Origin: Actinophytocola xinjiangensis
GTDB taxonomy: Bacteria; Actinomycetota; Actinomycetes; Mycobacteriales; Pseudonocardiaceae
Length of the DNA stretch: 64,000 bases
Assembly: GCF_001921215.1 (NCBI RefSeq)
Contig: NZ_MSIF01000001.1
Span: 434,001 to 498,000, forward strand
Direction of reading: 5' to 3'
The notes under the pieces were generated by a model. That model saw nothing but the letters and a program-made list of their open reading frames with translations. It did no database searches and was not told the DNA's origin. This document shows positions 1 to 19,105 of the stretch, piece after piece. The translations under genes and the position numbers were made by a program. Positions within the stretch are counted from its first letter, which is position 1. Every line of letters begins with the position of its first letter.

Positions 1-77
1 GAGTGCCTTGCCAAGCACGTCCGTCCCCTGCACTGCCCGCGAGCACTGGTGCTGACACCGATAGGAGAAGCCGGGTC

Positions 78-1778
78 ATGAAGCGGATCGCCCTTGTGCT
101 GCCCTCCAGCGACGAAAAACGGTCCTCGGCCATCTCCCAGGCCGGTGCCGAACACCTCGGACTCGGCTACATCGCCGCCTACCTGCGCCAGCACGGCTAC
201 CACGTCGACGTGTTCAACATGCAGGTGGACAACTACCTGTCCTACTGGGAGCTCGCCGAGGACGGCCCGGCCAAGTCGGTCGAGGAGACCGTGGCGCAGA
301 TCCTGCGCGGCGAGCCGGACCTGGTCGGCATGTCGATCACCGGCATCACCATCAACCAGGCGCTGCGGATGAGCTACCGGATGAAGGAGCTGCGCCCGGA
401 ACTGCCGATCATCTGGGGCGGCCACCAGGCCTTCTACAGCGCCCGCGACCTGATGGAACGCGAACCGTGTGTGGACGCCGTGGTCGCCAGCGACGGCGAG
501 ATCACCATGGTGCGGGTGATGGAGGCGCTGTCCTCGGGCGGTGACCTCGCCTCGATCACCGGCCTGTACCTGCGCACGCCCGAGGGCCGGATGCGCTACA
601 CCGGTCCTCCGCCGGAGCCAGCGCTCGACGAGCTGCCCGAGCCGGCCCGCGACACCCTGGAGGAGATGATCGCGCGCGGCCTGCACGTCACCGACGCGCG
701 GATCACCACCAGCCGGGGCTGCCCGTTCAAGTGCACGTTCTGCGTCGACCCGTCGCTGGGCTACCGGGTGAAGTGGCGGGCGCGCAGCGCGGAGCTGGTG
801 GTGGCCGAGATGAAGAACCTGGTCGACCGGTACGGCATCGAGTTCTTCTGGTTCAGCGAGGACAACTTCATCCCGTCCACCCGCCGTGGCCGCGAGCGGG
901 CCTCCCGGATCGCCGACCTGATCATGGAGTCCGGGATGCGGATCGGCTACCGGGCACTGATGCGCGCCGACGCCATCGTCGGTGAGCGGGCGCTGATCGA
1001 GAAGATGATGGACAGCGGCCTGAGCTGTGTCTACATCGGCGTCGAGTCCGGTTCGCCGCGCCGGCTGGAGTACTTCAAGAAGCAGGAGTCGCCCGAGGAG
1101 TACCGCGAGGTACTGGAGATGCTCGCCCAGACCCGGGTGGGCCTGCAGATCGGGTTCATCATGTTCGACCCGCTGACCACCTGGGAGGACCTGCGCATCG
1201 ACGGCCGGTTCCTGCACTCCATCGGCCAGATGTACCTGTACTCCAACTACTGCCAGACGCTGGACGTGTTCCCCGGCACCGAGATGTCCATGATGCTCAT
1301 CCAGCGCAGGCTGCTGGCCGCCGACTTCAGCTACGACTCGCCCTACGACGAGTACGACTGGGAGATCCCGGCGATCGGTTCGCTGGGCCGGGCCTACATG
1401 AAGGGCTACACCGAGGAGCAGATCGAGGCGGACAAGCTGTTCCAGCGGTTCGCGGTGGTCGACGTGCCGGGGATCTGGCGGCAGGTCCGCGGCGGCGAGC
1501 GGCCGGAGAGCGTGGCGCTGCGCGTGCAGGAGATCGCCGACCGCCACCTCGGCGAGCTCAACGACGCCGGCCTGCGGTTCTTCGAGGACAGCCTCGACCT
1601 GGCGTCGTCGGCCTGGGACCAGGACTCTTTCGACGCCCGCCGTAAGCAGCACCTGGAACGCACGCTGGAGATCAGGGACCGGATGTGGGAGGACCTGCGT
1701 GAGCTGCCCTCGGACATGCTCGACGAGATCACCTGTCTGCGCGGCGCGAAGGTCGGCGCCCGGTCCGAGTTCTGCTAG
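78..1778 (+). CDS. B12-binding-type radical SAM enzyme
   Basis: Predicted cobalamin-dependent radical SAM enzyme of 566 residues. The first ~140 residues resemble a B12-binding Rossmann domain (GLGYIAAYLRQHGYHV near the start, with no DxHxxG motif visible). The radical SAM core follows, with C215-x3-C219-x2-C222 (CPFKCTFC) to hold a 4Fe-4S cluster. The ATG at 78 is chosen because AGGAGAAG ends 7 nt upstream; the frame stays open back to a GTG at 3, but that stretch reads like leader. Family members do methylations, ring contractions or other radical rearrangements, and the sequence does not say which. It is followed after 9 nt by a creatininase-fold gene and then a ferredoxin, which could be its dedicated electron donor. 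The first gene of the operon may lie outside the window. Confidence 0.85.
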   Translation: MKRIALVLPSSDEKRSSAISQAGAEHLGLGYIAAYLRQHGYHVDVFNMQVDNYLSYWELAEDGPAKSVEETVAQILRGEPDLVGMSITGITINQALRMSYRMKELRPELPIIWGGHQAFYSARDLMEREPCVDAVVASDGEITMVRVMEALSSGGDLASITGLYLRTPEGRMRYTGPPPEPALDELPEPARDTLEEMIARGLHVTDARITTSRGCPFKCTFCVDPSLGYRVKWRARSAELVVAEMKNLVDRYGIEFFWFSEDNFIPSTRRGRERASRIADLIMESGMRIGYRALMRADAIVGERALIEKMMDSGLSCVYIGVESGSPRRLEYFKKQESPEEYREVLEMLAQTRVGLQIGFIMFDPLTTWEDLRIDGRFLHSIGQMYLYSNYCQTLDVFPGTEMSMMLIQRRLLAADFSYDSPYDEYDWEIPAIGSLGRAYMKGYTEEQIEADKLFQRFAVVDVPGIWRQVRGGERPESVALRVQEIADRHLGELNDAGLRFFEDSLDLASSAWDQDSFDARRKQHLERTLEIRDRMWEDLRELPSDMLDEITCLRGAKVGARSEFC

Positions 1779-1787
1779 CGGGCCGGC

Positions 1788-2576
1788 ATGCCGCTGATCG
1801 ACGAGCTGAGCACGACCGAGGTCACCGACCTGCGCGCGCGGCGCGACCCGACGGCCGTGCTGGTCACGGGTTCCTGCGAGCAGCACGGCGCGCACCTGCC
1901 GCTGGACACCGACACCTACCTGGCCACCCAGGTGGCGACGGCGGCGTGCACGGTGACCGGGGACGTGCTGCTCCCGTCGCTGCCGTTCGGGTACAACGAG
2001 AAGGAGCTGGGTTTCGCCGGCACGGTGTCGGTGCCCGCGCGCCAGTACCTCGACCTGGTCGTCGGGATCGGGGAGTCGCTGCGCCGCTCGGGCTGGCGGC
2101 GGCTGGTGATCGTCAACGGGCACGGCTGGAACAACGACCTGCTGCGGGTGGCGACCCACGTGCTCAACGAGACCGCCGGCCTGACGGCGGCGTGCTGCTC
2201 GTACTGGAGCCTGTGTGCCGACGAGGTGGCCGAACTGCGGGAGTCGCCGGTGCCGGGCGGGATGGCGCACGCGTGCGAGTTCGAGACCTCGCTGATGCTG
2301 CACCTGCGACCCGACAGCGTCCGCACGGACCTGGTGGTGGACGAGATCAGCTACCGGCGGCTGCCCTCGACCCACCACGACCTGCTGCGCAAGTCGGCCG
2401 TCTGTCTGCCGGAGGATTTCGCCGTGCTGAGCACCAGCGGGGTCATCGGCTCGCCGTCGCTGGCCACGGCGGACAAGGGAAAACTGTGGTTCGACGCCGC
2501 GTCACGCCGGCTCGGCGAGTTCCTCGTCGCCTTTCGTGAGGAATTCCCCGGGTCCGAGTTGGAGAGGACACCATGA
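1788..2576 (+). CDS. Creatininase-family amidohydrolase
   Basis: Metal-dependent amidohydrolase of the creatininase/MftE superfamily, 262 residues, close to the usual ~240-260. Family metal-binding motifs are visible: [13 protein letters not shown] (Glu, His, Asp) near residue 31, NGHGWNN near 111, and HACEFETS near 163. Relatives hydrolyse small cyclic or peptide amides; MftE trims a radical-SAM-modified peptide in mycofactocin maturation. No mycofactocin precursor, MftC or MftD is nearby, so only the principle (radical SAM product followed by amide hydrolysis) carries over. The stop overlaps the next ATG (ATGA at 2573-2576), so the ferredoxin is translationally coupled. Substrate unknown. 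Confidence 0.85.
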
Positions 2577-2935
2577 CCTGGGTGATCACCCGGTTGTGCC
2601 GGGACTGTCTCGACCTGACGTGCCTTGAGGTGTGTCCGGTGAACTGCATTGTCGAGCGTACGGGTGAACCGTCGCCGGAATGGCCCAACCAGCTCTACAT
2701 CGTGCCCAACGAGTGCATCGACTGCGGCGCGTGTGAGCCGGAATGCCCGTACGAGGCCATTTTCGAGGAGGAGTCGGTGCCGCCCGAGGTGTCCGACGAC
2801 ATCGCGCTCAACTATCGCGTCGAGGACCATCGCGACGAGTTCGCCACGCCTCCTGGTTCGAGTGACGGCACGGTTCCCTCGCCGGAGGAAGTCGTGGCGA
2901 ACAAGGTGAAATGGGGTGTTCCGGAGAACTACTGA
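2573..2935 (+). CDS. Ferredoxin, 7Fe/8Fe type
   Basis: Ferredoxin of 120 residues with two cluster-binding motifs. The first is C9-x7-C17-x3-C21-P, as in FdxA-type proteins, with extra Cys at positions 12 and 25. The second is [12 protein letters not shown] (C-x2-C-x2-C-x3-C-P). The tail (~residues 80-120) is acidic and Pro/Ser-rich, with no recognised domain. Its position directly after a radical SAM and an amidohydrolase gene, coupled by ATGA, suggests it feeds electrons to the radical SAM enzyme or to the flavoenzyme downstream. Whether the first cluster is 3Fe-4S or 4Fe-4S cannot be decided by eye. Confidence 0.9.
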
Positions 2936-2943
2936 CACGGTGT

Positions 2944-2973
2944 TTGACAAGCTCCGGTCGGGTCCGGTAGTCA
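2944..2973 (+). promoter_or_regulatory. Candidate sigma-A promoter of the NRPS operon
   Basis: A consensus -35 hexamer TTGACA (2944-2949), an 18-nt spacer and TAGTCA (2968-2973) as -10. It lies in the only sizeable gap (121 nt) within the 19-kb biosynthetic locus, between the ferredoxin and the AMP ligase. It would drive the coupled run from 3057 to 19105. Seen by eye only; the start site is not proven. Confidence 0.5.
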
Positions 2974-3056
2974 TGGTGCAGGTCGTGTGCGAGCGCGCGC
3001 CGATCCGGGGACGACGCGGGGGTTTCCGTATGTCACGAAGTCCGATGTAGACAATC

Positions 3057-4547
3057 GTGCTGGTAACCTCGGAGCCGCGCACGATCCTGTCGGCGTTGGC
3101 CTCCCGCGACCCCGACGGTCCGGCTCTGGTCGACGCCGCCGGCACGGTCAGCCGTGCCGAACTGGCCGCCCTGGCCACGACCACCGCCGCCTGGCTGACC
3201 CGCCGGGGCGTGCGTCCCGGCGACCGGGTCCTGGTGCGGGCCGGCGCCCACCGCACGACCGTCGCCGCGCTGTTCGGCTGCCTGCGGGCCGGCGCGGTGT
3301 TCGTCCCCTACGCCACCGACACCACCGGCTACCAACTCGCGCACCTGGTGGCCGACGCCGACCCGGCGCTGCTGCTCACCGACGACCCCTCCGATCTGGA
3401 CAACGTTCCCGGCGTCGGAGCCGTTCCCGGTGCCCTGGTCGACGAACTCCGTGCCGCGGAGCCTGTTTCCGAGGCGCCCGACCCGCCGGTCGGGCCCGAT
3501 GACCTGGCGCTGCTGCTGTACACCTCGGGCAGTACCGCGCGACCCAAGGCGGTGGCCTGCACCCATGGCCAGGTCGCGTTCGCCGCGCGGGCCGTGGCGG
3601 CCAGGGTGCGCTACCGCGCCGAGGACGTCGTGCTGTGCCGGCTGCCGCTGTCGTTCGACTACGGCCTCTACCAGACGTTCCTGACCTTCCAGGCCGGCGG
3701 GACGCTGGTACTGGCCGACGCCACCCGCGACGCCCGGTTCCTGGTGGACCTCGCGGCCACCGGCGTGACCGTGCTGCCGCTGGTGCCCTCGCTCGCGACC
3801 ATGCTGCTGCGGCTGGCCACCCGCCGCGCCACGCCCGCGCTGACCTCGCCGCGCCTGGTGACCAGCACCGGCGAACACCTTCCGGCGGCGACGATCGCCG
3901 GGCTGCGGCGGGTGTTCCCGCGCGCCGGCGTGCAGATCATGTTCGGTACCACCGAGTGCAAGCGGATCACCGTGCACGAGGTGGACGGTGACCGGGACCG
4001 CCCCGGCTCGGTCGGCCGCCCGCTGCCCGGCACCAGCGTGCACATCCTCGACGACCAGGGCCGGGAGGTGCCGGCCGGCCGGTCGGGGCAGATCGCCGTG
4101 CGCGGCCCGCACCTGATGGCCGGCTACTGGCGCGCGCCCGAGCAGACGGCGGCGCGCTACCGCCGCGACGCCGGCGGCGGGCGGACGCTGCTCACCGGCG
4201 ACCACGGCCACCTCGACGCCGAGGGCTACCTGTACTTCGACGGCCGCCGCGACCACCTGTTCAAGCTGCGCGGTGTCCGCACGTCCACGGTGGAGATCGA
4301 GGACGCGGCCGGCCGCGTCCCCGGCGTCGACCAGGCCGTGGTCCTGCCACCGGACCAGAACCGGGAGGCGGTGCTGGTGGTGGTCGCCTCCGCCGGGCCG
4401 GAGCAGGTCCTGGCCGGGTTGCGCGCGTTGCTCGGCCCGGCCCGCACCCCGGCCACCTGCCGGGTCGTCGCGGCGATGCCGTTGACCGCCAACGGCAAGG
4501 TCGACCGGCGGGCACTGGGCCGGCTCGTGGACGGTGGTCGGTCGTGA
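3057..4547 (+). CDS. Free-standing acyl/aminoacyl-AMP ligase
   Basis: ANL-superfamily adenylating enzyme, 496 residues, with no fused carrier protein. Visible motifs: LLLYTSGSTARPKAV (A3, ~157-171), MFGTTECKR (A5 region, ~299), TGDHGH (A7, ~381) and LTANGKVDR (A10, ~477, with the catalytic Lys). The LPLSFDYGLYQ stretch is typical of discrete AMP ligases rather than modular NRPS A domains, so an eight-residue amino-acid code should not be read from it with confidence. The GTG at 3057 is the first in-frame start and lacks a clear ribosome-binding site. It overlaps the next gene by 4 bp (GTGA). It may activate an acyl or amino acid that the neighbouring flavoenzyme oxidises, but no partner carrier protein is encoded here. 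Confidence 0.85.
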   Translation: MLVTSEPRTILSALASRDPDGPALVDAAGTVSRAELAALATTTAAWLTRRGVRPGDRVLVRAGAHRTTVAALFGCLRAGAVFVPYATDTTGYQLAHLVADADPALLLTDDPSDLDNVPGVGAVPGALVDELRAAEPVSEAPDPPVGPDDLALLLYTSGSTARPKAVACTHGQVAFAARAVAARVRYRAEDVVLCRLPLSFDYGLYQTFLTFQAGGTLVLADATRDARFLVDLAATGVTVLPLVPSLATMLLRLATRRATPALTSPRLVTSTGEHLPAATIAGLRRVFPRAGVQIMFGTTECKRITVHEVDGDRDRPGSVGRPLPGTSVHILDDQGREVPAGRSGQIAVRGPHLMAGYWRAPEQTAARYRRDAGGGRTLLTGDHGHLDAEGYLYFDGRRDHLFKLRGVRTSTVEIEDAAGRVPGVDQAVVLPPDQNREAVLVVVASAGPEQVLAGLRALLGPARTPATCRVVAAMPLTANGKVDRRALGRLVDGGRS

Positions 4548-5710
4548 GCACGGACACGAGTGCCCGGGTGGCCGCCGTGCTGCCGGTGCTGCACGCGCAC
4601 GCCGGGGAGATCGACGAGCACGCCACGTTCCCCACCGCCGGACTCGACGCCCTGGCGCGCCAGGGCCTGCTCGGGCTGCTGGTCCCGGCCGAGCACGGCG
4701 GCCTCGGCGGCGACCTCACCGACCTGGTGGCGGTCGCCGCAGACCTGGCCGCCGGCTGCATGTCGACCGCGCTGGTGTGGGCGATGCACTGCCAGCAGAC
4801 CGACTCCCTGGTCCGGTTCGCCACCCCGTGGCTGGCCGGCCACGTGCTGCCCAGGATCGCCGCCGGCGAGGTCTACCTGGCATCGGTCACCACCGAGCCC
4901 GGCAAGGGCGGGCACCTGCTGACCGGGGTCGCGCCGCTGGAACGGACCGGCGACCTGCTGCGGCTGGACCGCGACGCCCCGGTCGTCACCGGCGGCCTGC
5001 ACGCCACCGGGTTCCTGATCACCATGCGCGCCTCGGACGAGGCGACCGCCAACCAGCTCAGCCTGGTCTACGCCGACCGCGACCAGCTCGACCTGACCCG
5101 CGCCACGGACTGGGACACCCTGGGCATGCGCGGCACCGAGAGCGTCGGGCTGAGGATCTCCGGGGCGGTCCCGGCGCACCAGGTCGTCGGCGAGCCGGGC
5201 GGGTTCCGCACGGTGGCGGTGGAGAGCATGGGGCCGGTCGGACACCTGGCGTGGGCGGCGTGCTGGCTGGGCACCGCGCGCGGCGCGTTCGCCGACCTGG
5301 TGTCCTGGCTGCGGTCGGACAGGCGTTCCCGGAGCATCGACCTGTCCTCGGACCTGGTGGCCGAGCGGCTGGCCCGCATCCGGATGGACCTCGAACTCGT
5401 CTCCGGCTACCTGCACCGGGTCACCGGCGAGATCACCGCCCTGCGCGCGGCGGGGGAGTCCCTGTCCGGGACCGACACCCAGATCCACCTCAACACCCTG
5501 AAGGTCACCTCGGCCGAGCTGACCTTCCGCGCGGTCGACCGCATGGTCGGGCTGGCCGGCCTGACCGCCGGGTATCGCCGCGACTCGCCGCTGGCCCTGG
5601 AACGCCGCTTCCGCGACCTGCGTTCCGCCAGCCTCAACTACGCCGACGACCGGCTGCTCACCTCGACCGGCGCGCTGACCGTGCTGGACCGCGCCGTGCG
5701 GCTCGCATGA
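4544..5710 (+). CDS. Acyl-CoA-dehydrogenase-fold flavoenzyme
   Basis: Flavin-dependent protein of the acyl-CoA dehydrogenase superfamily, 388 residues (normal length). N-terminal helical domain with GLLGLLVPAEHGGLGGD; middle beta domain with SVTTEPGKGG and DTLGMRGTES; C-terminal helical bundle. The C-terminal end lacks the YEGTSEI-type stretch that carries the catalytic Glu in ordinary fatty-acid enzymes (present in the unrelated paralogue at 62501-63724). It may therefore be a carrier-bound-substrate oxidase or a flavin hydroxylase of the same fold. It is coupled to the AMP ligase upstream, a pairing also seen in pathways that desaturate a carrier-bound amino acid. Its stop overlaps a possible ATG of the ABC transporter at 5707. 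Confidence 0.8.
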   Translation: MSTDTSARVAAVLPVLHAHAGEIDEHATFPTAGLDALARQGLLGLLVPAEHGGLGGDLTDLVAVAADLAAGCMSTALVWAMHCQQTDSLVRFATPWLAGHVLPRIAAGEVYLASVTTEPGKGGHLLTGVAPLERTGDLLRLDRDAPVVTGGLHATGFLITMRASDEATANQLSLVYADRDQLDLTRATDWDTLGMRGTESVGLRISGAVPAHQVVGEPGGFRTVAVESMGPVGHLAWAACWLGTARGAFADLVSWLRSDRRSRSIDLSSDLVAERLARIRMDLELVSGYLHRVTGEITALRAAGESLSGTDTQIHLNTLKVTSAELTFRAVDRMVGLAGLTAGYRRDSPLALERRFRDLRSASLNYADDRLLTSTGALTVLDRAVRLA

Positions 5711-5727
5711 CCGACGGGAGAGGGCCG

Positions 5728-7539
5728 ATGCCGGCTCGGCTGACGGAGTTCCTGGCGCGCCGGCGCCGGCTGCTGGCGCTGCTGGTCCACGCCGGCCCCG
5801 GCCCGCTCGCGGGGCTGCTGGCCGCCCACCTGGTGACCGCCCTGGCCGCGGCCGCCACGTCGGTGGCCACCGGCTGGCTGCTCACCGGCGCCCTGGCGAG
5901 CTCCGCGGTCGGCGAGATCCTGCTGCCGCTGGGGCTGGTGGCGGTGCTGGTGCTCGCCGGCCAGTGCGTCGAGATCGCCAGGGAACCGCTGGACCTGTTG
6001 GCGGCACGCCGGATCGACGGCGCGCTGCGGTCGGCGGTCCGGGACCGGGTGGCGCGGCCGAGCGGGATCGCGCACCTGGAGGACCTCGACCACGCCACCG
6101 ACGTCGCGCGGGTGTCGGAACTGGGTGGCTGGCGGACCAGGACCCCGGGCACCGGTGCGGTCGGCCAGCTCCTGCTGCTGGGCCGGTTGACCAGCGCGGT
6201 GCTGTGCGCGGTGGTCCTGGCCTGGTTCGCGCCGCTGCTGGCGGTGTGGCTGCTCGCCGTCACCCTGGTGATGCGGGCCGGTATCCGCCGGCACTGGGTG
6301 CGGCTGAGCCGGACCTGGGACGAGCACGCCGGCGCCCGGCGGCGGGCGGAGTACTGGGCCGACACGCTCACCGAGTCGCCCGCCGGCAAGGAGGTGCGGC
6401 TGTTCGGCCTCGGTCCCTGGCTGACCGAGCGGTACCGCGAGCAGGCGCGCGGCTGGCTGACCGAGATCTGGCGCGACCGCCGGGGAATCCTGCGCCGCCA
6501 GTGGTGGACGTTCCTGCTGGCACTGGCCGCCGGGTTCGCCGCCCTGTACGTGCCGGGCGCGGCGCTGGCCGCCGGGACAGTGGACTTCGGCGGGCTGATC
6601 ACGATGGTGCTCGCCGCGTGGGGCGTGTTCGCGGCCGGCGCCATGGGCCACGAGGCCTTCGACATCGAGTACGCCCTCGGCGCGCTGCGTGCCCTGGACC
6701 GGCTCGACCGGCACGTCGCCGTGCGGGCCGGCGGCGACCGGCCGGCGCCGGACTCCCCGGTGCGCCTGCGGTTCGAGCGTGTCGGGTTCCACTACCCCGG
6801 CGGTGACCGGCCGGTGCTCGACGGGCTGGACCTGGACATCGGCCCGGCGGAGGTACTGGCGGTCGTCGGCCGCAACGGCGCCGGCAAGACCACGATGATC
6901 AAGCTGTTGACCGGGTTGCACGAGCCGACCGGCGGGCGGATCACCCTCGACGGCACCGACCTCGCCGACGTCGACCTGACGTCCTGGCGTCGCCGGGTCA
7001 CGGCCGTGTTCCAGGACTTCGTGCACTACCCGCTGACCGTGCGGGAGAACGTCGCGCTCGGCGCGCCCGAGGCCGGCGCGGACGACGGTCCGATCCTGGC
7101 GGCGGTGGCCGCCGCCGGGGCCACCGGCCTCGTCGACCGGCTGCCCGACGGCCTGGACACCCTGCTCACCCGCGAACACTCCGGCGGGGTCGACCTGTCC
7201 GGCGGGCAGTGGCAGCGGATCGCGATCGCCCGGGCGCTGTTCGCGGTGGCCAACGGCCGGCAGGTGCTGATCCTGGACGAGCCGACCGCGCACCTGGACG
7301 TCCGCGCCGAGGCGGAGTTCTACGACCGGGTCATCTCGGCGGTGTCCGGGGTGACCGTCGTCCTGATCTCCCACCGGCTCTCGACCGTGCGCCGCGCCGA
7401 CCGGATCGTCGTGCTGGACAACGGCCGGGTCAGCGAGTCGGGAAACCACGGCGAGCTGATGGACCACGGCGGCGAGTACGCCGGGCTGTACCGGTTGCAG
7501 GCCGGGCGGTTCGCCGAGGACACCGAGGGGGCGGCGTGA
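5728..7539 (+). CDS. ABC exporter half-transporter (TMD-NBD) 1
   Basis: Fused membrane/ATPase half-transporter of about 603 residues. Several hydrophobic helices fill residues ~20-320. The ATPase carries Walker A GRNGAGKTT (~381), signature LSGGQWQRIAIAR (~490), Walker B VLILDEPTAHLD and the H-loop LISHRLST, all canonical. The start is set at ATG 5728 because GGGAGAGGG lies just upstream; an ATG at 5707 overlapping the previous stop (ATGA) is the alternative. It overlaps the next half-transporter by 4 bp, so the two probably form a heterodimer. The likely job is export of the NRPS product, or self-protection. Confidence 0.9.
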   Translation: MPARLTEFLARRRRLLALLVHAGPGPLAGLLAAHLVTALAAAATSVATGWLLTGALASSAVGEILLPLGLVAVLVLAGQCVEIAREPLDLLAARRIDGALRSAVRDRVARPSGIAHLEDLDHATDVARVSELGGWRTRTPGTGAVGQLLLLGRLTSAVLCAVVLAWFAPLLAVWLLAVTLVMRAGIRRHWVRLSRTWDEHAGARRRAEYWADTLTESPAGKEVRLFGLGPWLTERYREQARGWLTEIWRDRRGILRRQWWTFLLALAAGFAALYVPGAALAAGTVDFGGLITMVLAAWGVFAAGAMGHEAFDIEYALGALRALDRLDRHVAVRAGGDRPAPDSPVRLRFERVGFHYPGGDRPVLDGLDLDIGPAEVLAVVGRNGAGKTTMIKLLTGLHEPTGGRITLDGTDLADVDLTSWRRRVTAVFQDFVHYPLTVRENVALGAPEAGADDGPILAAVAAAGATGLVDRLPDGLDTLLTREHSGGVDLSGGQWQRIAIARALFAVANGRQVLILDEPTAHLDVRAEAEFYDRVISAVSGVTVVLISHRLSTVRRADRIVVLDNGRVSESGNHGELMDHGGEYAGLYRLQAGRFAEDTEGAA

Positions 7540-10564: not shown

Positions 10565-10568
10565 GGTG

Positions 10569-13500
10569 ATGCCGGTGCTGCCCCTGTCCTTCGCGCAGCG
10601 CCGGCTGTGGTTCCTGGACCGTCTCGCCGGGCCGTCGGCCACCTACAACCTGCCGCTGGCGCTGCGCCTGACCGGCGCGCTGGACGTGCCGGCCCTGCGC
10701 GCCGCGCTGGGCGACGTGCTCACCCGGCACGAGGCGCTGCGCACGGTCTTCCCCGACCGCGACGGCGAACCCCACCAACAGGTCCTGCCGCCCGACCCGC
10801 GCCTGACGGTCCGCCCGCTGCCGTCCGCCGACGTGCCGGCCGCCGCCGCGGAGCCGTTCGACGTGACGGCCGAACCGCCGCTGCGCGCGACCCTGTTCAC
10901 CGGCGACGCCGAGGCGCTGCTGCTGGTGGTGGTGCACCACATCGCCGCCGACGGCGTCTCGCTGGGGCTGCTGGTCCGCGACCTGGCGACCGCCTACCGG
11001 GCCAGGGCCGGGCACGGCGGGCCGCCGGCCTGGGCCGAACTGCCGGTCCAGTACGCGGACTACACGCTGTGGCAACGGGAACTCGTCGACAGCGTCCGTG
11101 ACGACCAGCTCGCCCACTGGCGCTCGACGCTGCGTGGTCTCCCCGAGATCATCACCGTGCCACCCGACCGGCCCCGGCCGGCGATGGCCAGCCACCGGGG
11201 CGCGCTGGTCCCGGTCGACCTCGGCGCCCGCCGGCACCGCGACCTGGCCGCCCTGGCGCGCCGGCACGACTGCACGGTGTTCATGGTGCTGCACGCGGCC
11301 CTGGTGGTGCTGCTCACCCGGCACGGCGCCGGCACCGACGTCCCGGTCGGCACGGTCGTCGCCGGGCGCACCGAGGCGGACCTGGAGGACCTGGTCGGGC
11401 TGTTCGTCAACACGCTGGTCCTGCGCACCGACACCGGCGGCGACCCCACCTTCGGTGAGCTGCTCGGGCGGGTCCGGCGGGTGAACCTGGCGGCGCTGGC
11501 CCACCAGGACCTGCCCTTCGACGTCCTGGTCGAGGCGCTGAACCCGCCGCGCCGCCTGGCCAGCCACCCGCTGTTCCAGGTGATGCTGGCGCTCGAACGG
11601 CACGACCCGTCGCCGCCCGACCTCGGGCCGGTCACGGCCGTGCGCCGGGACCTGGACGTGCCGGCCGCCAAGGTCGACCTGACCTTCCAGCTGCGCGAAC
11701 ACCGCGACGGTGTGGACGGTTTCCTGGAGTACGCCACCGACCTCTACGACGAGCCGACCGCCCGGGCGGTCGTGGACCGGTTCGTGCGGGTGCTGGACGC
11801 GGTCGTGGCTGACCCGGACCGCCGCGTCGGCCGGATCGGCCTGATCTCGGCCGCCGAACGCCGCCGGGTGCTCGTCGACTGGAACACCACCGGCCGCGAC
11901 GTCCGGCCGGGGCTGCTGCACGAGGCGGGCGGCCACCAGGGGATCGCCGTGGTGGCCGGCGACCGCCGGCTGACCCGCGCCGACCTGGACCGTCGCGCGG
12001 ACGCGTTGGCCCACCGGCTGGTCGAGGCCGGGGTGCGGCCCGGGGCGGTCGTCGGGGTGGCCCTGCCCCGGTCGCCGGAGTTCGTGATCGCGGTGCACGC
12101 CGTCCTGCGGGCGGGCGGCGCGTACCTTCCGCTCCCGCCCGACCACCCGCCCCAGCGCCTCGCGTACCTGGTCAGCGACGCCCGCCCGCGCTGCGTGGTG
12201 GGCGACCCCGCCCCGTTCCACGACGAGGTGACCGTCGTCGGCGTCGACGAGACCGCCGTCGCGCCCGGTGACCTGCCGCGACTCACACCGCACCATCCCG
12301 CCTACGTCCTGTACACCTCCGGGTCCACCGGCCGGCCCAAGGGTGTCGTGGTCTCCCACGGCGCGGTGGACAACCGGCTGCGCTGGGCGCAGGCCGAGCT
12401 GCCACTTGGACCGGCGGACCGGGTGCTGCACAAGACCCCGGCCGGGTTCGACGTCTCGGTGTGGGAGCTGTTCTGGCCGTGGCGCGCCGGCGCGACGCTG
12501 GTGCTCGCCGAGCCGGGCGCGGAGTGGGACCCGGCGCTGATCGCCGGGGAGATCGCGCGGCACGGCGTCACCGCCGCGCACTTCGTCCCGTCGATGCTGC
12601 GGGCGTTACTCGCTGAACCGCCGGTCGCCGCGCCGGCCCTGCGCCGGGTGCTCAGCAGCGGCGAGGCCCTGGCCGCCGACACCGCCGGGGCGTTCCATCG
12701 CCGCTACCCCGGGGTGGAGCTGGTGAACCTCTACGGCCCGACCGAGGCGGCCATCGACGTCACCGCACATCGTTGCGTACCAGGCGATCCACTGCCCGTC
12801 CCGATCGGACGTCCGGTGTGGAACACCCAGGTCCGGGTGCTGGACGACGGGCTGGCGCCGTGCCCGGTCGGCGTGCCGGGCGAGCTGTACCTGGCCGGCG
12901 CGCAGCTCGCCGAGGGCTACCTCGGACGCCCGGCGCTGACCGCCGGCCGGTTCGTCGCCGACCCGTACGGGCCGGGGCGTCTGTACCGCACCGGCGACGT
13001 CGTGCGCTGGCGCCGCGACGGCGAGCTGGAGTTCCTCGGCCGGGCCGACGACCAGGTCAAGCTGCGCGGCCACCGGCTCGAACTCGGCGAGATCGAGAGC
13101 CTCCTGCTGGCCGACGACTCGGTCGCCGACGCCCGCGCCACCGTCCACGACGGGCAGTTCCTCGCCGCCTACGTCACGCCGGCCCCCGGCCACCGGCCCG
13201 ACCCGGTGGCCCTGCGCGGTGTCCTCACCGCGCGCCTGCCAGCCGCGGTCGTCCCGCCGGTGACCGTCCTGCCGAGTCTTCCGTTGGGCCCCAACGGAAA
13301 ACTCGACCGGTCCGGGCTGCCGCCGCCGGCCGCCGCCCCCGCCGGCCGGCCGCCGGGCACCCCACGCGAGCGGGCCGTCGCCGCGCTGTTCGAACAGGTG
13401 CTCGGCGTCACCGGCGTCGGCCTGGACGACGACTTCTTCGCCCTGGGTGGCCATTCCCTGCTCCTGGTGCCCCTCGCCCGGCGCCTGCGGACGCGGTTCG

Positions 13501-14339
13501 GTGTCGACGTCGCGGTGCACGAGCTGTTCCTCGCCCCGACCGTCGCGGCGCTCGACCGCCGCCTGGCCGGGGCCGGTCATGACCCCGACGGGCACGCGCC
13601 GCTGCTCACGCTGCGCCCCGGCGGCGAGCGCCCGCCGCTGGTGTTCGTGCATCCCGCCACCGGGCTGAGCTGGTGCTACTCCCGGGTCCTTGACCACATC
13701 GACCCCGACCGGCCGGTGTACGGGCTCCAGGCGCGGACCGCGCACCCGCCCGGCTCGGTCGCCGAGATGGCGCAGGACTACCTGGCCATCGTTCGCGAGA
13801 TCCAGCCCAGCGGGCCCTACCACCTGCTCGGCTGGTCGTTCGGCGGCAACGTCGCGCACACCATGGCCGCCCGGCTGCGCGCGGCCGGCGAGCAGGTGGC
13901 GCTGCTGGTCCTGTTCGACAGCCACCCCACCCTCGTTCGCCGGTCGCCCCCCGAGCGGGAGCTGCTGGCGACCGCGCTGGAGAACCTGCTCGGCCGCCCA
14001 CCGGACCGGGTCGCCACCGACGCCGGCATGCTCGATGCCCTGCGGCGGGCGTACCCGCCGCTGGCCGACGCCACCGACGACCAGGTCCTGGCCGTGGTGC
14101 GGGCCGGCGCGCACCACGTGCGGTTGCAGGCCGGCGCCACCCCGGAGACCTTCGACGGGGACCTGACGGTGGTCGTCGCCGAACGCGACGGGCCGGGGGA
14201 GCGGTGGGACCCGTTCGTCACCGGTCAGACCACCGTCGTCGGGGTCGACGCCGGCCACCACGACCTGTTCTCCACGGCGGCCCCGGCGACCGGCGCCGCC
14301 CTGTCCGCGATCCTGCGCACCCCGGGGAAGGTTCGATGA
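10569..14339 (+). CDS. NRPS C-A(Ser)-PCP-TE termination module
   Basis: Terminal NRPS module, 1256 residues. Order: C domain (~5-440, HHIAADG at ~123); A domain (~445-930, LYTSGSTGRPKG at ~581); PCP (LGGHSLL at ~960, Ser for phosphopantetheine); thioesterase (~1005-1256, GWSFGG nucleophile elbow at ~1088, DAGHHD His near 1229). Aligning by eye to the GrsA pocket positions gives D-V-W-H-L-S-L-I-D plus the A10 Lys, the established L-serine code. The architecture and length match EntF, but no dihydroxybenzoate genes are present. A GTG at 10566 is an equally placed start. The stop overlaps the next gene (ATGA). By logic it acts last although its gene comes first. Confidence 0.95.
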   Translation: MPVLPLSFAQRRLWFLDRLAGPSATYNLPLALRLTGALDVPALRAALGDVLTRHEALRTVFPDRDGEPHQQVLPPDPRLTVRPLPSADVPAAAAEPFDVTAEPPLRATLFTGDAEALLLVVVHHIAADGVSLGLLVRDLATAYRARAGHGGPPAWAELPVQYADYTLWQRELVDSVRDDQLAHWRSTLRGLPEIITVPPDRPRPAMASHRGALVPVDLGARRHRDLAALARRHDCTVFMVLHAALVVLLTRHGAGTDVPVGTVVAGRTEADLEDLVGLFVNTLVLRTDTGGDPTFGELLGRVRRVNLAALAHQDLPFDVLVEALNPPRRLASHPLFQVMLALERHDPSPPDLGPVTAVRRDLDVPAAKVDLTFQLREHRDGVDGFLEYATDLYDEPTARAVVDRFVRVLDAVVADPDRRVGRIGLISAAERRRVLVDWNTTGRDVRPGLLHEAGGHQGIAVVAGDRRLTRADLDRRADALAHRLVEAGVRPGAVVGVALPRSPEFVIAVHAVLRAGGAYLPLPPDHPPQRLAYLVSDARPRCVVGDPAPFHDEVTVVGVDETAVAPGDLPRLTPHHPAYVLYTSGSTGRPKGVVVSHGAVDNRLRWAQAELPLGPADRVLHKTPAGFDVSVWELFWPWRAGATLVLAEPGAEWDPALIAGEIARHGVTAAHFVPSMLRALLAEPPVAAPALRRVLSSGEALAADTAGAFHRRYPGVELVNLYGPTEAAIDVTAHRCVPGDPLPVPIGRPVWNTQVRVLDDGLAPCPVGVPGELYLAGAQLAEGYLGRPALTAGRFVADPYGPGRLYRTGDVVRWRRDGELEFLGRADDQVKLRGHRLELGEIESLLLADDSVADARATVHDGQFLAAYVTPAPGHRPDPVALRGVLTARLPAAVVPPVTVLPSLPLGPNGKLDRSGLPPPAAAPAGRPPGTPRERAVAALFEQVLGVTGVGLDDDFFALGGHSLLLVPLARRLRTRFGVDVAVHELFLAPTVAALDRRLAGAGHDPDGHAPLLTLRPGGERPPLVFVHPATGLSWCYSRVLDHIDPDRPVYGLQARTAHPPGSVAEMAQDYLAIVREIQPSGPYHLLGWSFGGNVAHTMAARLRAAGEQVALLVLFDSHPTLVRRSPPERELLATALENLLGRPPDRVATDAGMLDALRRAYPPLADATDDQVLAVVRAGAHHVRLQAGATPETFDGDLTVVVAERDGPGERWDPFVTGQTTVVGVDAGHHDLFSTAAPATGAALSAILRTPGKVR

Positions 14340-17300
14340 CCAGCCTGTTCGACGCGTTCCAGGCGCAGGCGCGGCGCACCCCCGACGGGATCGCCGTCGA
14401 GTGCGCCGGCGAGCTGACCACCTACGCCGCGCTGGCCGCGCGGGCCGACGCGCTGGCCGCGCGGCTGGTCCGCTCCGGCGCCGGTCCGGACACCCTGGTC
14501 GCGCTGTCCCTGCCCCGGTCGACCGATCTGGTGGTGGCGCTGCTCGCGGTGACCGGCGCCGGCGCCGCCTACGTCCCGCTCGACCCGGCCCACCCGGCCG
14601 CCCGCAACCGGTTGATCCTCGACCAGGCCAGGCCGGTGACCGTGCTCGACCGGGTGCCGCCCGACGGTCCCACCGGGTTCGTCGCCGTGCCGCCGGCCGA
14701 GGAGACCCTGGCCTACGTGCTGTTCACCTCGGGCTCCACCGGCGTGCCCAAGGGCGTCGCGGTCACCCACGGCAACCTCGGCGCGCTGCTGCGGGGCTTC
14801 GCCGAACGGCTTCCACTGTCCACACAGGACCAGATGCTGGCGGTGACCACCGTCGGGTTCGACATCGCCGGGCTGGAGCTGTTCGGCCCGCTGCTCGCCG
14901 GCGCGCGGGTCGTGCTCGCCACCGCCGACGAACAGCGCGACCCGGTGCGCCTGGCCAGGATCCTGCGGCGGGGCGACATCACCGTCGCCCAGGCGACACC
15001 CCCGCTGTGGCAGGCGATCCTGGAGACCGGCGAGGCCGACCTGCGCGGCGTGCGGGTCGTGACCGGCGGCGAGGCGCTGCGGGAGAAGCTGGCCGCCGGC
15101 CTGCTGGCCGGCGCGCACACGGTGATCAACGGCTACGGCCCGACCGAGGCCACGGTCTACGCCACCGCCGCGACCGTGCACACCGCCGGGGACGCCGTCT
15201 CCATCGGCACCCCGGTCCCCGGCACCACCGCCCACGTCCTGGACGACGCCCTGCGCCCGACCGACACCGGCGAGCTGTACCTCGGCGGCGCCGGCATCGC
15301 CCGGGGTTACCTCGGCCGCCCCGACCTGACCGCGCAGCGGTTCGTCGCCGACCCGTTCGGCCCGCCGGGCGCGCGCCTGTACCGCACCGGCGACCTCGTC
15401 CGCCGCCGAGCCGGCGGCGACCTGGAGTACCTCGGGCGCACCGACTCCCAGGTCAAGATCCGCGGCTTCCGGGTCGAGCCGGGGGAGGTGGAGGCCGTCG
15501 CGAGCACCCTGCCCGGTGTCCGCGCCGCCGCGGTCGTCGCCCACGAGGACGACCTCGGCGGGCGGCGGCTGGTGCTGCACGCCGTCCTCGACGGTGACAC
15601 CGGTGACCTGCGCGCCCGGCTCGCCACGCTGCTGCCCGACCACCTGGTGCCCTCGGCCGTGGTCGGCCACGACCGGCTCCCGCTCACCCCGACCGGCAAG
15701 ATCGACCGGGCCGCGCTGCCCGCACCCGACTTCGGCCGCCCGGCCGGCGACGCGCTCCCGTCCGGCGTGCGCGAGGAGGCGTTGGGCGCGCTGTTCGCCG
15801 AGGTCCTCGGCGTCGACCGGGTCGGAGCCGAGGACGGATTCCTCGACCTGGGCGGGCATTCGCTGATGGCGACCCGGCTGCTCGGCCGGCTGCGCGCCGA
15901 CCTCGGCCTGGAGCTGACGGTCGGCGAGTTCTTCGCCGCGCCGACCGTGCGCGCGGTCGCCCGGCGCGCCAGGCCAGCGCCGCCGCTGCCGGCACCGGTC
16001 CGGCACCCCGACCGGGACCGCGTGCCGCTGTCGCACTCCCAGCGCCGGTTGTGGTTCCTCAACCAGTTGGAGGAGCGGGGCGCGACCTACACCATCCCGC
16101 TGACCCTGCACCTGCGCGGACCGCTGGACGTCGACGCGCTGCGCGCCGCGCTGGCCGACGTGGTCGAACGCCACGAGAGCCTGCGGACGGTGTTCCCGCA
16201 GTCCGAGTCCGGCGAGCCGTGGCAGCGGGTGCTGTCCGGGGTGGTCCCGGCGCTCCCCGTCGTACACGGCGACACCGCCTTCCCGCGCGAGGGCGTCGAC
16301 CTGGCCACGCAGATCCCGTTCCGCGCCGAACTCGTCGTCCTCGGCCGCGACGACCACCTGCTGCACCTGGCCCTGCACCACATCGCCGGCGACGGCTGGT
16401 CGCTGACCCCGCTGGTCACCGACCTGCTGGCCGCCTACGCCGCCCGCCGGTCGGGCAACCCGCCGGACCTCGCGCCGCTTCCCGTGCGGTACACCGACGT
16501 CACCCTGTGGCAGCGCGACCGCGACCACACGGCCGGCCTCGACCACTGGCGCGCGGTGCTCGCCGGGCTGCCCGAACAGCTCGACCTGCCCTACGACCGG
16601 CCGCGCCCCGCCCGCGCCTCCTACCGGGGCGACACGGTCACCGTCACCGTCGACGCCGCCACCCACGACGCGCTGGCCGCCCTCGCCCGCGCCGAGGGCG
16701 CGACGGTGTTCATGGCGGTGCACGCCGTGCTCGCCGCCCTGCTGACCCGCCTGGGCGCCGGCACCGACATTCCCGTCGGTACCCCGGTCGCCGGGCGCGA
16801 CGACGACGCGCTCGCCGGCCTCGTCGGGTTCTTCGTCAACACCGTCGTCCTGCGCGCCGACACCTCCGGCGACCCCGCGTTCCGCGCGCTGCTGGCGCGG
16901 GTGCGCGAGGTCGACCTTGACGCGTTGCGCCACCGGCAGGTGCCGTTCGAGCTGCTGGTGGAGGCGCTGAACCCGGCCCGGTCGCTGGCCCGCCACCCGC
17001 TGTTCCAGGTGCTGCTGGTCGCCCAGCACCCCGGGACGCCGTTCGCGGCGCCCGGCCTGGAGGTGCGGGCGAGCGAGCCGTCGCTGGGCGTGGCCAAGTT
17101 CGACCTGTCGTTCAGCCTGACCGAGAACCCGGGCGCGGGGATCGAGGTGGTGGTGGAGTTCGCCACCGACGTGTTCGACCGCGCCACCGCCGAGCGGATC
17201 GCCGGCTACTTCCTTCGCCTGCTGCGGGCCGCCGTCGCCGAACCCGACCGGCCCGTCGGCGCCCTGGACATGATGACCGCCGCCGAGCGCCGCCAGGTGC

Positions 17301-19105
17301 TCGCCGGGTGGAACGCCACCACCCACCCGGTGCTCGACCGGACCCTGCCCGACCTGCTGGCCGCGCAGGCCGCCAGGACCCCCGACGCGGTCGCCGTGCG
17401 GTACGAGGACGAGTCGGTCAGCTACGCCGACCTGGACGCGCGGTCCAACCGGATGGCCCGGCTGCTCGCCGGCCGGGGCGTCGGGCCGGAGACGGTCGTC
17501 GCGCTGGCCGCGCCGCGCTCGGTGGCCATGCTGGTCGGGATGCTCGGCGTGGTGAAGGCCGGCGCGGCCTACCTGCCGGTCGACCCCGACTACCCCGACG
17601 AGCGGGTCGCGTTCATGCTCGCCGACAGCGACCCGGTCGGCGTGCTCACCACCGCCGGCGGAACTCTGCTGCTCGACGGCCAACCTTGTGACCTGGCGAC
17701 CCACTCACCCGCTCCGGTCACCGACGCCGACCGGGTTCGGCCGCTGCGCCCCGACCACCCGGTGTACGTGATCTACACCTCCGGCTCCACCGGCCGTCCC
17801 AAGGGCGTCGTGCTGCCCGCCCGGGCCATGGTCAACCTGCTGGCCTGGCACGCGACGGTCATGGGCGGCGGGGTCGGTGTCACGACCGCCCAGTTCGCGT
17901 CGCTGAGCTTCGACGCCGCCGCGCAGGAGATCTTCTCCGCGCTGACCTCCGGCAAGACGCTCGCCGTGCCGCGCGAGGACGTCCGCAAGGACACCCAGCG
18001 GCTGGTGCGGTGGCTGGCCGGGCTGCGGGTCAACGAGCTGTTCGCGCCGACGCCGGTGGTGGAGGGCATCGGCGAGGCCGCGCGGGAGCTGGGCCTTGAC
18101 CTGCCCGACCTGACCGACATCGCCCAGGCCGGCGAGGCGCTGACCTTCCACCGCGCGGTCCGCGACTTCTGCGCCGCCCGGCGGGTGCACAACTACTACG
18201 GCCCGACCGAGACCCACGTCGTCACCGGCCTGACCGTCGCGGCCGAGACGGTCGAACGCGGTGACACCCCGTCGATCGGCGGCCCGATCTGGAACACCCG
18301 CTGCTACGTCCTGGATCCCGCGCTGCGCCCGGTCCCCGTCGGGGTGTCCGGCGAGCTGTACCTGGCGGGGCGGCAGAACGCGCGGGGCTACCTGCGGCGC
18401 CCCGGTCTCACCGCGCAGCGGTTCGTCGCCGACCCGTACGCCGGGCCGGGGGAGCTGATGTACCGCACCGGCGACCTGGCCCGCTGGCGCCCCGACGGCA
18501 CCCTGGACTTCCTCGGCCGCCGCGACTTCCAGGTCAAGATCCGTGGTTTCCGGGTGGAGCTGGGCGAGATCGAGGTGGCGTTGTCCCGCCGGCCCGAGGT
18601 CGCCCGGGTGGTGGTCGTGGCCCGCGAGGACCGCCCCGGCGACCGCCGCCTGGTCGCCTACGTCGTGCCGGCCGGCGTCCGTCCCGACCCCACCGCCCTG
18701 CGCCGGGCCGTGGCCACCGTGCTCCCCGAGTACATGGTCCCCGCCGCGGTCGTCGTGCTGGACACGTTCCCGTTGACCCCCAACGGAAAGCTCGACCGCG
18801 CGGCGCTGCCCGCCCCGGACTACACCCAGGTCTCCCGGGCCGTGCCGCCCTCGGGCGAGCGTGAGCACACCCTCGCCAGGCTCTTCGCTGACATCCTCGG
18901 CGTCCCGGCCGTCGGCGCCGACGACAACTTCTTCGAGCTGGGCGGCCACTCCCTGCTGGCGACCCGGCTGATCAACCGGATCCGCACCGAGACCCGGTGC
19001 GAGGTCACCATCATCGACCTGTTCGACAGCCCCACCGTCCAGGGCATCGCCCAGCGCCTGCGCGAACCGGCCCGCCCCCGCCCCACGCTGCGGCGCCGCC
19101 GCTGA
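14336..19105 (+). CDS. NRPS A-PCP-C-A-PCP
   Basis: Two-module NRPS of 1589 residues. Order: A1 (~1-490, TSGSTGVPKG at ~130), PCP1 (LGGHSLM, Ser ~509), C (~562-985, HHIAGDGWS ~681), A2 (~1003-1500, YTSGSTGRPKG ~1147), PCP2 (LGGHSLLATRL, Ser ~1539). There is no epimerase, methyltransferase or release domain, so the chain must pass to the C-A-PCP-TE protein encoded upstream. Pocket residues read by eye: A1 = D-I-L-Q-V-G-G-V-Y, nearest to the known glycine code at its first four positions but not a match; A2 = D-A-Q-F-A-A-Y-V-V, which I cannot assign. Starting with an A domain marks it as the initiating protein. No MbtH-like gene is seen nearby. Confidence 0.95.
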   Translation: MTSLFDAFQAQARRTPDGIAVECAGELTTYAALAARADALAARLVRSGAGPDTLVALSLPRSTDLVVALLAVTGAGAAYVPLDPAHPAARNRLILDQARPVTVLDRVPPDGPTGFVAVPPAEETLAYVLFTSGSTGVPKGVAVTHGNLGALLRGFAERLPLSTQDQMLAVTTVGFDIAGLELFGPLLAGARVVLATADEQRDPVRLARILRRGDITVAQATPPLWQAILETGEADLRGVRVVTGGEALREKLAAGLLAGAHTVINGYGPTEATVYATAATVHTAGDAVSIGTPVPGTTAHVLDDALRPTDTGELYLGGAGIARGYLGRPDLTAQRFVADPFGPPGARLYRTGDLVRRRAGGDLEYLGRTDSQVKIRGFRVEPGEVEAVASTLPGVRAAAVVAHEDDLGGRRLVLHAVLDGDTGDLRARLATLLPDHLVPSAVVGHDRLPLTPTGKIDRAALPAPDFGRPAGDALPSGVREEALGALFAEVLGVDRVGAEDGFLDLGGHSLMATRLLGRLRADLGLELTVGEFFAAPTVRAVARRARPAPPLPAPVRHPDRDRVPLSHSQRRLWFLNQLEERGATYTIPLTLHLRGPLDVDALRAALADVVERHESLRTVFPQSESGEPWQRVLSGVVPALPVVHGDTAFPREGVDLATQIPFRAELVVLGRDDHLLHLALHHIAGDGWSLTPLVTDLLAAYAARRSGNPPDLAPLPVRYTDVTLWQRDRDHTAGLDHWRAVLAGLPEQLDLPYDRPRPARASYRGDTVTVTVDAATHDALAALARAEGATVFMAVHAVLAALLTRLGAGTDIPVGTPVAGRDDDALAGLVGFFVNTVVLRADTSGDPAFRALLARVREVDLDALRHRQVPFELLVEALNPARSLARHPLFQVLLVAQHPGTPFAAPGLEVRASEPSLGVAKFDLSFSLTENPGAGIEVVVEFATDVFDRATAERIAGYFLRLLRAAVAEPDRPVGALDMMTAAERRQVLAGWNATTHPVLDRTLPDLLAAQAARTPDAVAVRYEDESVSYADLDARSNRMARLLAGRGVGPETVVALAAPRSVAMLVGMLGVVKAGAAYLPVDPDYPDERVAFMLADSDPVGVLTTAGGTLLLDGQPCDLATHSPAPVTDADRVRPLRPDHPVYVIYTSGSTGRPKGVVLPARAMVNLLAWHATVMGGGVGVTTAQFASLSFDAAAQEIFSALTSGKTLAVPREDVRKDTQRLVRWLAGLRVNELFAPTPVVEGIGEAARELGLDLPDLTDIAQAGEALTFHRAVRDFCAARRVHNYYGPTETHVVTGLTVAAETVERGDTPSIGGPIWNTRCYVLDPALRPVPVGVSGELYLAGRQNARGYLRRPGLTAQRFVADPYAGPGELMYRTGDLARWRPDGTLDFLGRRDFQVKIRGFRVELGEIEVALSRRPEVARVVVVAREDRPGDRRLVAYVVPAGVRPDPTALRRAVATVLPEYMVPAAVVVLDTFPLTPNGKLDRAALPAPDYTQVSRAVPPSGEREHTLARLFADILGVPAVGADDNFFELGGHSLLATRLINRIRTETRCEVTIIDLFDSPTVQGIAQRLREPARPRPTLRRRR

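Follow-up and report, generated by a model that had tools for sequence, protein, structure and literature searches.

The start of a 64,000-nucleotide stretch of the Actinophytocola xinjiangensis genome (contig NZ_MSIF01000001.1, positions 434,001 to 498,000; hereafter the window) raises the question of whether adjacent genes for a B12-binding radical S-adenosylmethionine enzyme (rSAM), a creatininase-fold amidohydrolase, and a ferredoxin work together with the nonribosomal peptide synthetase (NRPS) genes that follow them. A preliminary description of the window had proposed that these three genes form a front end that makes a building block for, or modifies, a nonribosomal peptide. Translations and Pfam searches located all three genes as described, with the NRPS genes downstream on the same strand, and they are as closely coupled as had been claimed: the ATG of the rSAM gene (78-80) overlaps the TGA stop codon of the preceding gene (79-81), a 9 bp spacer separates it from the creatininase gene, and the creatininase and ferredoxin genes overlap by 4 bp. 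However, a simple three-gene front end was rejected. The window begins in the middle of a gene run that extends ~13 kb further upstream on the same strand, and the three genes are the tail of a set that comprises six or more genes and, in addition, a GlmS-like gene; among its products are three B12-binding rSAMs in all and an Old-Yellow-Enzyme-type flavoenzyme (OYE). Our answer to the opening question, to which we give an even chance, is that the locus is a composite cluster of ~44 kb (~408.7-453.1 kb of the contig, C1), reaching ~25 kb upstream of the window, in which this gene set, referred to below as the cassette, would make residue 1 of a short peptide. A single composite cluster in the broader sense, which also covers tailoring of the peptide by the cassette, can at most be called rather likely.

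Upstream positions refer to the preceding stretch of the same genome (L004; subtracting 20,000 gives the window position) and to a further 20 kb to its left (L144). On the strand of the window genes, the upstream genes encode an M16 peptidase, a GNAT protein, a weakly NTP_transf_5-like protein, the GlmS-like protein, rSAM1, an rSAM2-kinase fusion, and the OYE, so that the cassette reads GlmS-like, rSAM1, rSAM2-kinase, Fe-S OYE, rSAM3, creatininase, ferredoxin. Further left, on the opposite strand, are an ATP-binding cassette (ABC) transporter of three genes and genes for an NTP_transf_5 protein, a pyridoxal phosphate (PLP) decarboxylase, and an 82-aa carrier protein; the last three lie at L004:1245-3891. 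In the PDB, the decarboxylase is best matched by entries for BtrK (181.8 and 181.0 bits). Still further left come genes for a SIS protein, a solute-binding protein, a PhyH dioxygenase, a transporter ATPase, a thymidylate-kinase-like protein, and two permeases. The PhyH-family gene (L144:18080-19054; best PDB matches SnoN and SnoK) stands between these importer genes, where the composite cluster has its left boundary.

The free-standing AMP-binding ligase encoded directly after the cassette was found in 92 of 390 genomes of the family (1e-95; four candidates scored per genome), and neighbourhoods were fetched for five of these, namely G623, G586, G774, G592 (which ends at a contig end), and G024. 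The complete NRPS operon was present in two of the five, G623 and G586. These two were compared by tblastn as well as by BLAST against called genes, and the other three by the latter only, with a gene caller whose GC3 filter misses some genes, e.g. the AMP-ligase gene of G623. The seven genes to the right of the cassette are 61-78% identical in G623, and in G586 six of them are 53-69% identical and the seventh, for a stand-alone condensation (C) domain, is 32% identical. In both genomes, genes for an NTP_transf_5 protein, a BtrK-like decarboxylase, and a small carrier protein adjoin those for the AMP-ligase and an acyl-CoA-dehydrogenase-like flavoprotein (ACAD). Neither genome is among the seven of the family with a match to rSAM3 (1e-40, whole genome, up to three candidates scored), and no cassette gene was matched at 1e-10 within the 40 kb read of each. 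The left-hand NTP_transf_5 protein additionally had matches at 1e-60 in another genus (3 of 392 genomes; 35-38% identity; four candidates scored per genome), with ACAD genes (52-60%) nearby in all three. One of these neighbourhoods (G1310) has an AMP-ligase (49%), a decarboxylase (47%), and ABC exporters (49%), and another (G1049) has an NRPS of the thioesterase (TE) type (46%) and, in the same region, an adenylation (A) domain whose code, DVWSISLVDK, is Ser-like; the motifs RGCxxxCxFC and EDKx5NS are absent from the stretches read of the three. The conservation in G623 and G586 indicates that the NRPS operon forms a unit, which we refer to, with its adjoining genes, as the scaffold.

The genes upstream of the scaffold differ between the two relatives. 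In G623, the NTP_transf_5 gene is preceded at ~0.6-1 kb by a co-oriented phosphoenolpyruvate (PEP) mutase gene with the EDKxxxxxNS motif, which marks C-P bond-forming enzymes. The mutase (L121:15473-16399) and the scaffold (17031-37400 of L121 and L122 joined) make up a candidate phosphonate peptide cluster in their own right. G586 instead has genes for a ClpX-type ATPase, an M28 peptidase, a phosphodiesterase-type protein, and a protein without a Pfam match, genes that may or may not belong with the NRPS. An enolase gene ~9 kb from the G586 scaffold (L124:9901-11499) may be a self-resistance copy, and near it are phosphodiesterase-type genes and genes that by eye resemble nucleoside-diphosphate kinase and PhyH. 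The EDKx5NS motif occurs neither in L004 and the window together (84 kb) nor in the G586 and Micromonospora sp. C95 stretches.

The latter genome is the second place in which the cassette was found. The three rSAMs were aligned, and a scan with this alignment of the genome contigs of 84,980 species, one genome per species, gave at least 586 pattern matches and 424 relatives; 79 loci were kept and three of these (L009-L011) were read, so more copies are possible. Best among the matches listed was Micromonospora sp. C95 (rSAM, 70%), which has, in the same order and on the same strand, rSAM1 (70%), rSAM2-kinase (66%), OYE (46%), rSAM3 (70%), creatininase (71%), and ferredoxin (59%). The ferredoxin gene is directly followed there by a thymidylate-kinase-like gene and then by NagB-II-like, unmatched, and MurQ-NagK-like genes, and the GlmS-like gene (50%) is located ~5 kb downstream of the cassette on the other strand. 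Judging from this shared order, the rSAM1-to-ferredoxin genes form a unit. It is evidently a rare one, as at 1e-50 the only match to rSAM3 among 60 relatives was the genome itself, and at 1e-40 it was matched in the seven family genomes mentioned above (of 390), where the A. xinjiangensis genome alone gives three matches, Kibdelosporangium persicum is 47% identical, and five genomes are 31-33% identical. Among 396 genomes of the phylum, one matched the creatininase at 1e-65 (up to six candidates scored per genome), and among 60 relatives, one matched the long GlmS-like protein at 1e-150; in both cases it was the genome itself. At 1e-100, 3 of 121 genomes of the C95 genus, including C95, had a match to the GlmS-like protein (up to six candidates per genome). 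In the other two, G489 and G500 (L100/L101 and L102/L103), the long GlmS-like gene adjoins a NagB-II-like SIS gene. A plasmid search returned eight records, every one below 60% identity. In K. persicum (L010:5502-12809), the single rSAM3 relative (45%) is flanked by glycosyltransferase and APH-type kinase genes, with variant radical SAM, phosphoribosyltransferase-like, and aldo-keto reductase genes nearby.

The 147-kb C95 contig that carries the cassette holds no close AMP-ligase (best 33%) or NRPS (best 32%), and no close homologue of the ACAD, decarboxylase, carrier, or NTP_transf_5 protein was found on this one contig; an ABC exporter pair there is 40-43% identical to the two exporter halves of the window. 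As far as searched, the front end and the NRPS thus occur independently in both directions. Their co-occurrence, which the preliminary description had offered as a test, therefore drops out as evidence.

What connects the two halves is their arrangement, as scaffold and cassette genes are interleaved across ~44 kb. Because the carrier, decarboxylase, and NTP_transf_5 genes adjoin the AMP-ligase gene in the relatives and lie left of the cassette here, the scaffold genes bracket the cassette. These left-hand counterparts are 62/57% (carrier), 64/66% (decarboxylase), and 53/58% (NTP_transf_5, L004:2725-3891) identical to the proteins of G623/G586, and the exporter permeases that adjoin them are 47-49% identical to those of G623. 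Beyond them, the transporter and thymidylate-kinase-like genes match C95 at 42-58%; the link between this importer and the cassette is known from C95 alone, where the importer lies ~9-13 kb past the GlmS-like gene. Since scaffold and C95-type genes are interleaved, we read them as one cluster that arose through an exchange of modules. The view that cassette and NRPS are mere neighbours was rejected once the NTP_transf_5, decarboxylase, and carrier genes appeared left of the cassette. The NTP_transf_5-like gene at ~L004:8895-10025 was considered as the scaffold orthologue and rejected (no BLAST support; Pfam 25.1 versus a cut-off of 31.2).

A second line of evidence comes from the A domains, whose ten-residue codes were read from a joint alignment of the three genomes, the only one that compares them like with like, with a hand-entered anchor sequence. 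The free ligase has the code DYYSTTVECK in A. xinjiangensis, G623, and G586 alike. In the same order, the codes are DAQPTIYVVK, DAQPLIYVVK, and DAQPTIYVVK for the second A domain (A2) and DVWSLSLIDK, DVWSYSLVDK, and DVWSVSLVDK for the third (A3), which we take to be close to the serine code, and those of the first (A1) are DILLVGGVYK, DIISLGCVYK, and DILLLGAVWK. Omitting two near-invariant positions, 3 of 8 code positions are constant across the three genomes in A1, as compared with 7/8 in A2, 6/8 in A3, and 8/8 in the free ligase. Whichever two of the genomes are compared, A1 also shows the lowest conservation of the A domains (66/56/59% versus 79/68/69, 71/60/63, and 75/65/69%). As read from these codes, the pocket of the first A domain diverges between loci with different upstream genes. 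The earlier proposal that the front end feeds the NRPS is thus supported indirectly, through the interleaving and this locus-dependent A1 pocket.

Table 1. Genes of the cassette tail and the right-hand scaffold within the window (percentages are identities to the G623 and G586 proteins).
Gene or product	Position in window	Strand	Remarks
Fe-S OYE-type flavoenzyme, 3' end	1..81	+	622 aa, start upstream at L005:8213; PF00724 77.8 bits
rSAM3, B12-binding radical SAM	78..1778	+	566 aa; third of three tandem paralogues; ATG at 78
Creatininase-fold amidohydrolase	1788..2576	+	262 aa; PF02633 204 bits
FdxA-like ferredoxin	2573..2935	+	120 aa; Fer4 families; FdxA_Actino 75.4 bits vs cut-off 125
Free-standing AMP-binding ligase (Afree)	3057..4547	+	PF00501 270.7 bits; G623 71%, G586 59%
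ACAD-like flavoprotein	4544..5710	+	PF02771, PF08028; G623 77%, G586 69%
ABC exporter half 1	5707..7539	+	G623 77%, G586 67%
ABC exporter half 2	7536..9320	+	G623 78%, G586 64%
Stand-alone C domain	9320..10564, start approximate	+	PF00668 80.5 bits; G623 61%, G586 32%
NRPS C-A-T-TE, terminating module, Ser-like A code	10566..14339	+	G623 65%, G586 53%
NRPS A-T-C-A-T, initiating A1 and second module	14336..19105	+	G623 69%, G586 58%

An open reading frame (ORF) at 9334-10569 was discarded as spurious, having no Pfam match, and the C domain is read in another frame. A gap of 121 bp lies between the ferredoxin and AMP-ligase genes, and a scan of window positions 2800-3300 for promoters and terminators found none. 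Upstream, a scan of L004:13300-13900 returned one promoter-like and one terminator-like site, and rSAM1 is preceded by a 262 bp gap with a promoter-like site (9/12). A TctA-type tricarboxylate transporter gene on the opposite strand (19111-20613) was regarded as marking the right boundary of the cluster; to its right are two more opposite-strand ORFs, up to 22100.

Inspection of the cassette proteins themselves suggests what kind of chemistry the cassette might perform. All three rSAMs have B12-binding and Radical_SAM domains above the Pfam cut-offs (for rSAM3, PF02310 at 64.2 and PF04055 at 60.1 bits), the CxxxCxxC cysteines are unchanged in all seven aligned rSAM proteins, and Pfam reported no SPASM domain on rSAM1, rSAM2, or rSAM3. 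They could not be assigned to ApyD (NF050148; 74.2, 137.2, and 138.9 bits for rSAM1 to rSAM3 versus a cut-off of 750) or to the PhpK P-methyltransferases (TIGR04479; 44.6, 59.1, and 64.3 versus 600), and they fall far under the cut-offs of the remaining named families shown. An AlphaFold2 model of rSAM3 (pLDDT 82.7) gave OxsB as its top Foldseek match (TM-score by query length 0.64-0.67), followed by TokK, CysS, TsrM, and AprD4. OxsB is its top PDB sequence match as well (58 bits), with 16-17% identity over the fold alignment. The model thus assigns rSAM3 the B12-dependent radical SAM fold of the OxsB type. The model of the kinase-like domain of rSAM2 (pLDDT 51) was too poor for a structure search. 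The OYE has a C-terminal C..C..C-x9-C motif in both A. xinjiangensis and C95. An impression by eye that its N-terminus is an aldo-keto reductase was abandoned, as Pfam and BLAST give no support, and neither this N-terminus nor the rSAM2 kinase domain had a significant BLAST match among the K. persicum genes.

The hydrolase belongs to the creatininase superfamily (PF02633, cut-off 31.3) and scores below the NCBIfam cut-offs for both MftE (TIGR03964; 124.2 versus 172) and creatininase (109.2 versus 235). Aligned to PDB creatininases, it retains the Glu, His, Asp, His, and later Glu residues that we take to be metal ligands, and has Trp at position 122, where the two PDB entries shown carry Glu or Gln. 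The GlmS-like ORF comprises 1143 aa, or 1112 aa if translation were to begin at a Met-Cys-Gly-Ile start at residue 32, and also lies below the NCBIfam cut-offs (216.8 versus 418.05 and 242.9 versus 381). The Met-Cys start and the HTRWA, SQSGxTxD, and VASTKA motifs are retained in both A. xinjiangensis and C95; the third GlmS-like protein compared, that of G489, lacks an exact HTRWA. Because the Met-Cys-Gly-Ile start and the glutaminase and isomerase motifs are kept, the protein is probably an active amidotransferase.

From these features, we propose a cluster made up of two halves that can be exchanged. One of them, the scaffold (NTP_transf_5, BtrK-like decarboxylase, carrier, AMP-ligase, ACAD, stand-alone C domain, exporters, and the A-T-C-A-T and then C-A-T-TE synthetases), would assemble a short peptide X1-X2-(Ser-like), which probably bears an acyl unit built on the small carrier protein; this unit may be decarboxylated and possibly dehydrogenated on the carrier and attached by the stand-alone C domain. 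The cassette half, from the GlmS-like protein to the ferredoxin, would produce an unusual residue X1 that A1 loads. Within it, the ferredoxin might supply the rSAMs or the OYE, and the creatininase-fold enzyme might open an amide or lactam or trim an intermediate. The substrate of the cassette could be a sugar or amino sugar, a guess prompted by the presence of kinase and GlmS-like genes and by the resemblance in fold to OxsB.

Several observations weigh against this proposal. The cassette is known from only two genomes and the full scaffold from three, so the A1 argument compares three sequences, and the codes themselves depend on the alignment, as one other alignment changes letters of all four domains and another changes the codes of A2 and the free ligase. 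The C95 cassette contig carries AMP-ligase, ACAD, LuxC/LuxE, and ketosynthase/acyl carrier protein genes without this NRPS, and the GlmS-like protein occurs without rSAM3 (1e-30) in G489 and G500. In view of the promoter-like site and the 262 bp gap, transcription of the rSAM genes may be separate from that of the GlmS-like gene. The cassette may even be an insertion without function in the NRPS locus. A related but distinct account is that two separate clusters were joined by rearrangement, an unrelated rSAM cassette having been inserted in an NRPS cluster, with each retaining its own product. Such a history, which we consider unlikely although entirely credible, agrees with the separate occurrence of each half within the range searched, with the 121 bp gap at the junction, and with the different setting of the cassette in C95. 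However, scaffold genes flank the cassette on both sides with C95-type genes beyond, and therefore more than one insertion would be required; it also runs counter to this account that the divergent A domain is A1.

If the two halves do share a product, the cassette need not supply a free building block. It could tailor the finished or carrier-bound NRPS peptide, in keeping with the fold matches of rSAM3 to CysS and TokK, both solved with pantetheinylated substrates according to their entry titles, even though these rank below OxsB. As the cassette is present without this NRPS on the C95 contig and A1 differs between loci, we judge tailoring to be improbable. It seems no more credible that the cassette modifies a small ribosomal peptide from which a residue is released and passed to the NRPS, as in the pyrroloquinoline quinone, mycofactocin, and pearlin pathways. 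A candidate precursor does exist, since a Lys/Arg-rich 23-aa ORF with a strong Shine-Dalgarno sequence (L004:6721-6792) lies directly 5' of the M16 peptidase gene, and such an ORF appeared in 25 of 3000 dinucleotide shuffles of the 276-bp gap, a post hoc comparison. In Burkholderia stagnalis, three distant rSAM paralogues (26-32%) likewise stand together with an M16 gene and a 55-aa ORF. Its locus (L011/L092-L093) contains P450, major facilitator superfamily, and M16 genes and three tandem B12-binding rSAM genes, with the strong-Shine-Dalgarno ORF between two of them, and resembles one for a ribosomally synthesized and post-translationally modified peptide. However, a conserved precursor was rejected, as 44-76 kb of the C95 contig gave five short ORFs with strong Shine-Dalgarno sequences, none resembling the 23-aa peptide, and all five M16 matches of the C95 genome are off the cassette contig. 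The creatininase score below the MftE cut-off argues in the same direction, and the M16, GNAT, and second NTP_transf_5-like proteins are unmatched in the stretches read of C95, G623, and G586.

The composite cluster with a cassette-derived first residue can be extended to a more general and decidedly tentative idea, namely that a conserved NRPS scaffold takes exchangeable first residues from unrelated neighbouring gene sets: a phosphonate in one genome, the product of another set in a second, and here the product of a triple B12-rSAM set acting on an amino-sugar- or sugar-phosphate-like precursor, with the GlmS-like protein as either the entry enzyme or a self-protecting target copy. Azaserine hinders hexosamine synthesis, according to a published account (PMC10445470). 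By analogy, a protective GlmS copy is conceivable, and we do not count the azaserine effect as evidence here. In open-licence literature, judged by titles and the beginnings of abstracts, no described pathway was recognised for the cassette or its combination with the NRPS. If our proposal is correct, the locus contains an uncharacterised cassette of three tandem B12-dependent rSAMs and a creatininase-fold hydrolase, with C95 providing a second natural copy for comparison, and the three genomes represent a natural NRPS-engineering experiment in which the assembly line is the same, the upstream gene sets differ, and the first A domain has diverged.

Several known systems share parts of this arrangement. 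In mycofactocin biosynthesis, which the preliminary description had invoked for its chemical logic, MftC is a SPASM-type radical SAM protein encoded beside the MftA precursor and MftE is a creatininase-fold peptidase. A radical SAM gene adjoins a creatininase-fold gene in both cases, but the mycofactocin analogy gains no support: here there are three rSAMs with B12-binding and Radical_SAM domains only, a creatininase below the MftE cut-off, and an OYE and a GlmS-like protein within the unit, and no related precursor was found on the C95 contig. OxsB of the oxetanocin A pathway, the closest sequence and fold match of rSAM3, works with the HD phosphohydrolase OxsA, whereas no HD protein was present among the genes scanned here and the identity to OxsB is low. 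In butirosin biosynthesis, which employs the glutamyl-carrier decarboxylase BtrK and the carrier BtrI, the ligase is BtrJ, in contrast to the free AMP-binding ligase of our locus, although here too a BtrK-matching PLP decarboxylase adjoins a small carrier protein. In the azaserine account cited above (PMC10445470), the AMP-ligase AzsP, the carrier AzsQ, and the acyl-CoA dehydrogenase AzsF help to make an oxidised acyl unit. Compared with what is described there for azaserine and triacsin, our locus has a BtrK-like decarboxylase and, in the Pfam scans of the cluster, no AzsN-type cupin/tRNA-ligase protein, and it shares a free AMP-ligase, a carrier, and an ACAD-type dehydrogenase ahead of a serine-using NRPS. 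Finally, the 84 kb of our locus differ from phosphonate peptide clusters in having no EDKxxxxxNS motif, whereas the same scaffold NRPS in G623 lies near a PEP mutase gene, as in clusters of that kind.

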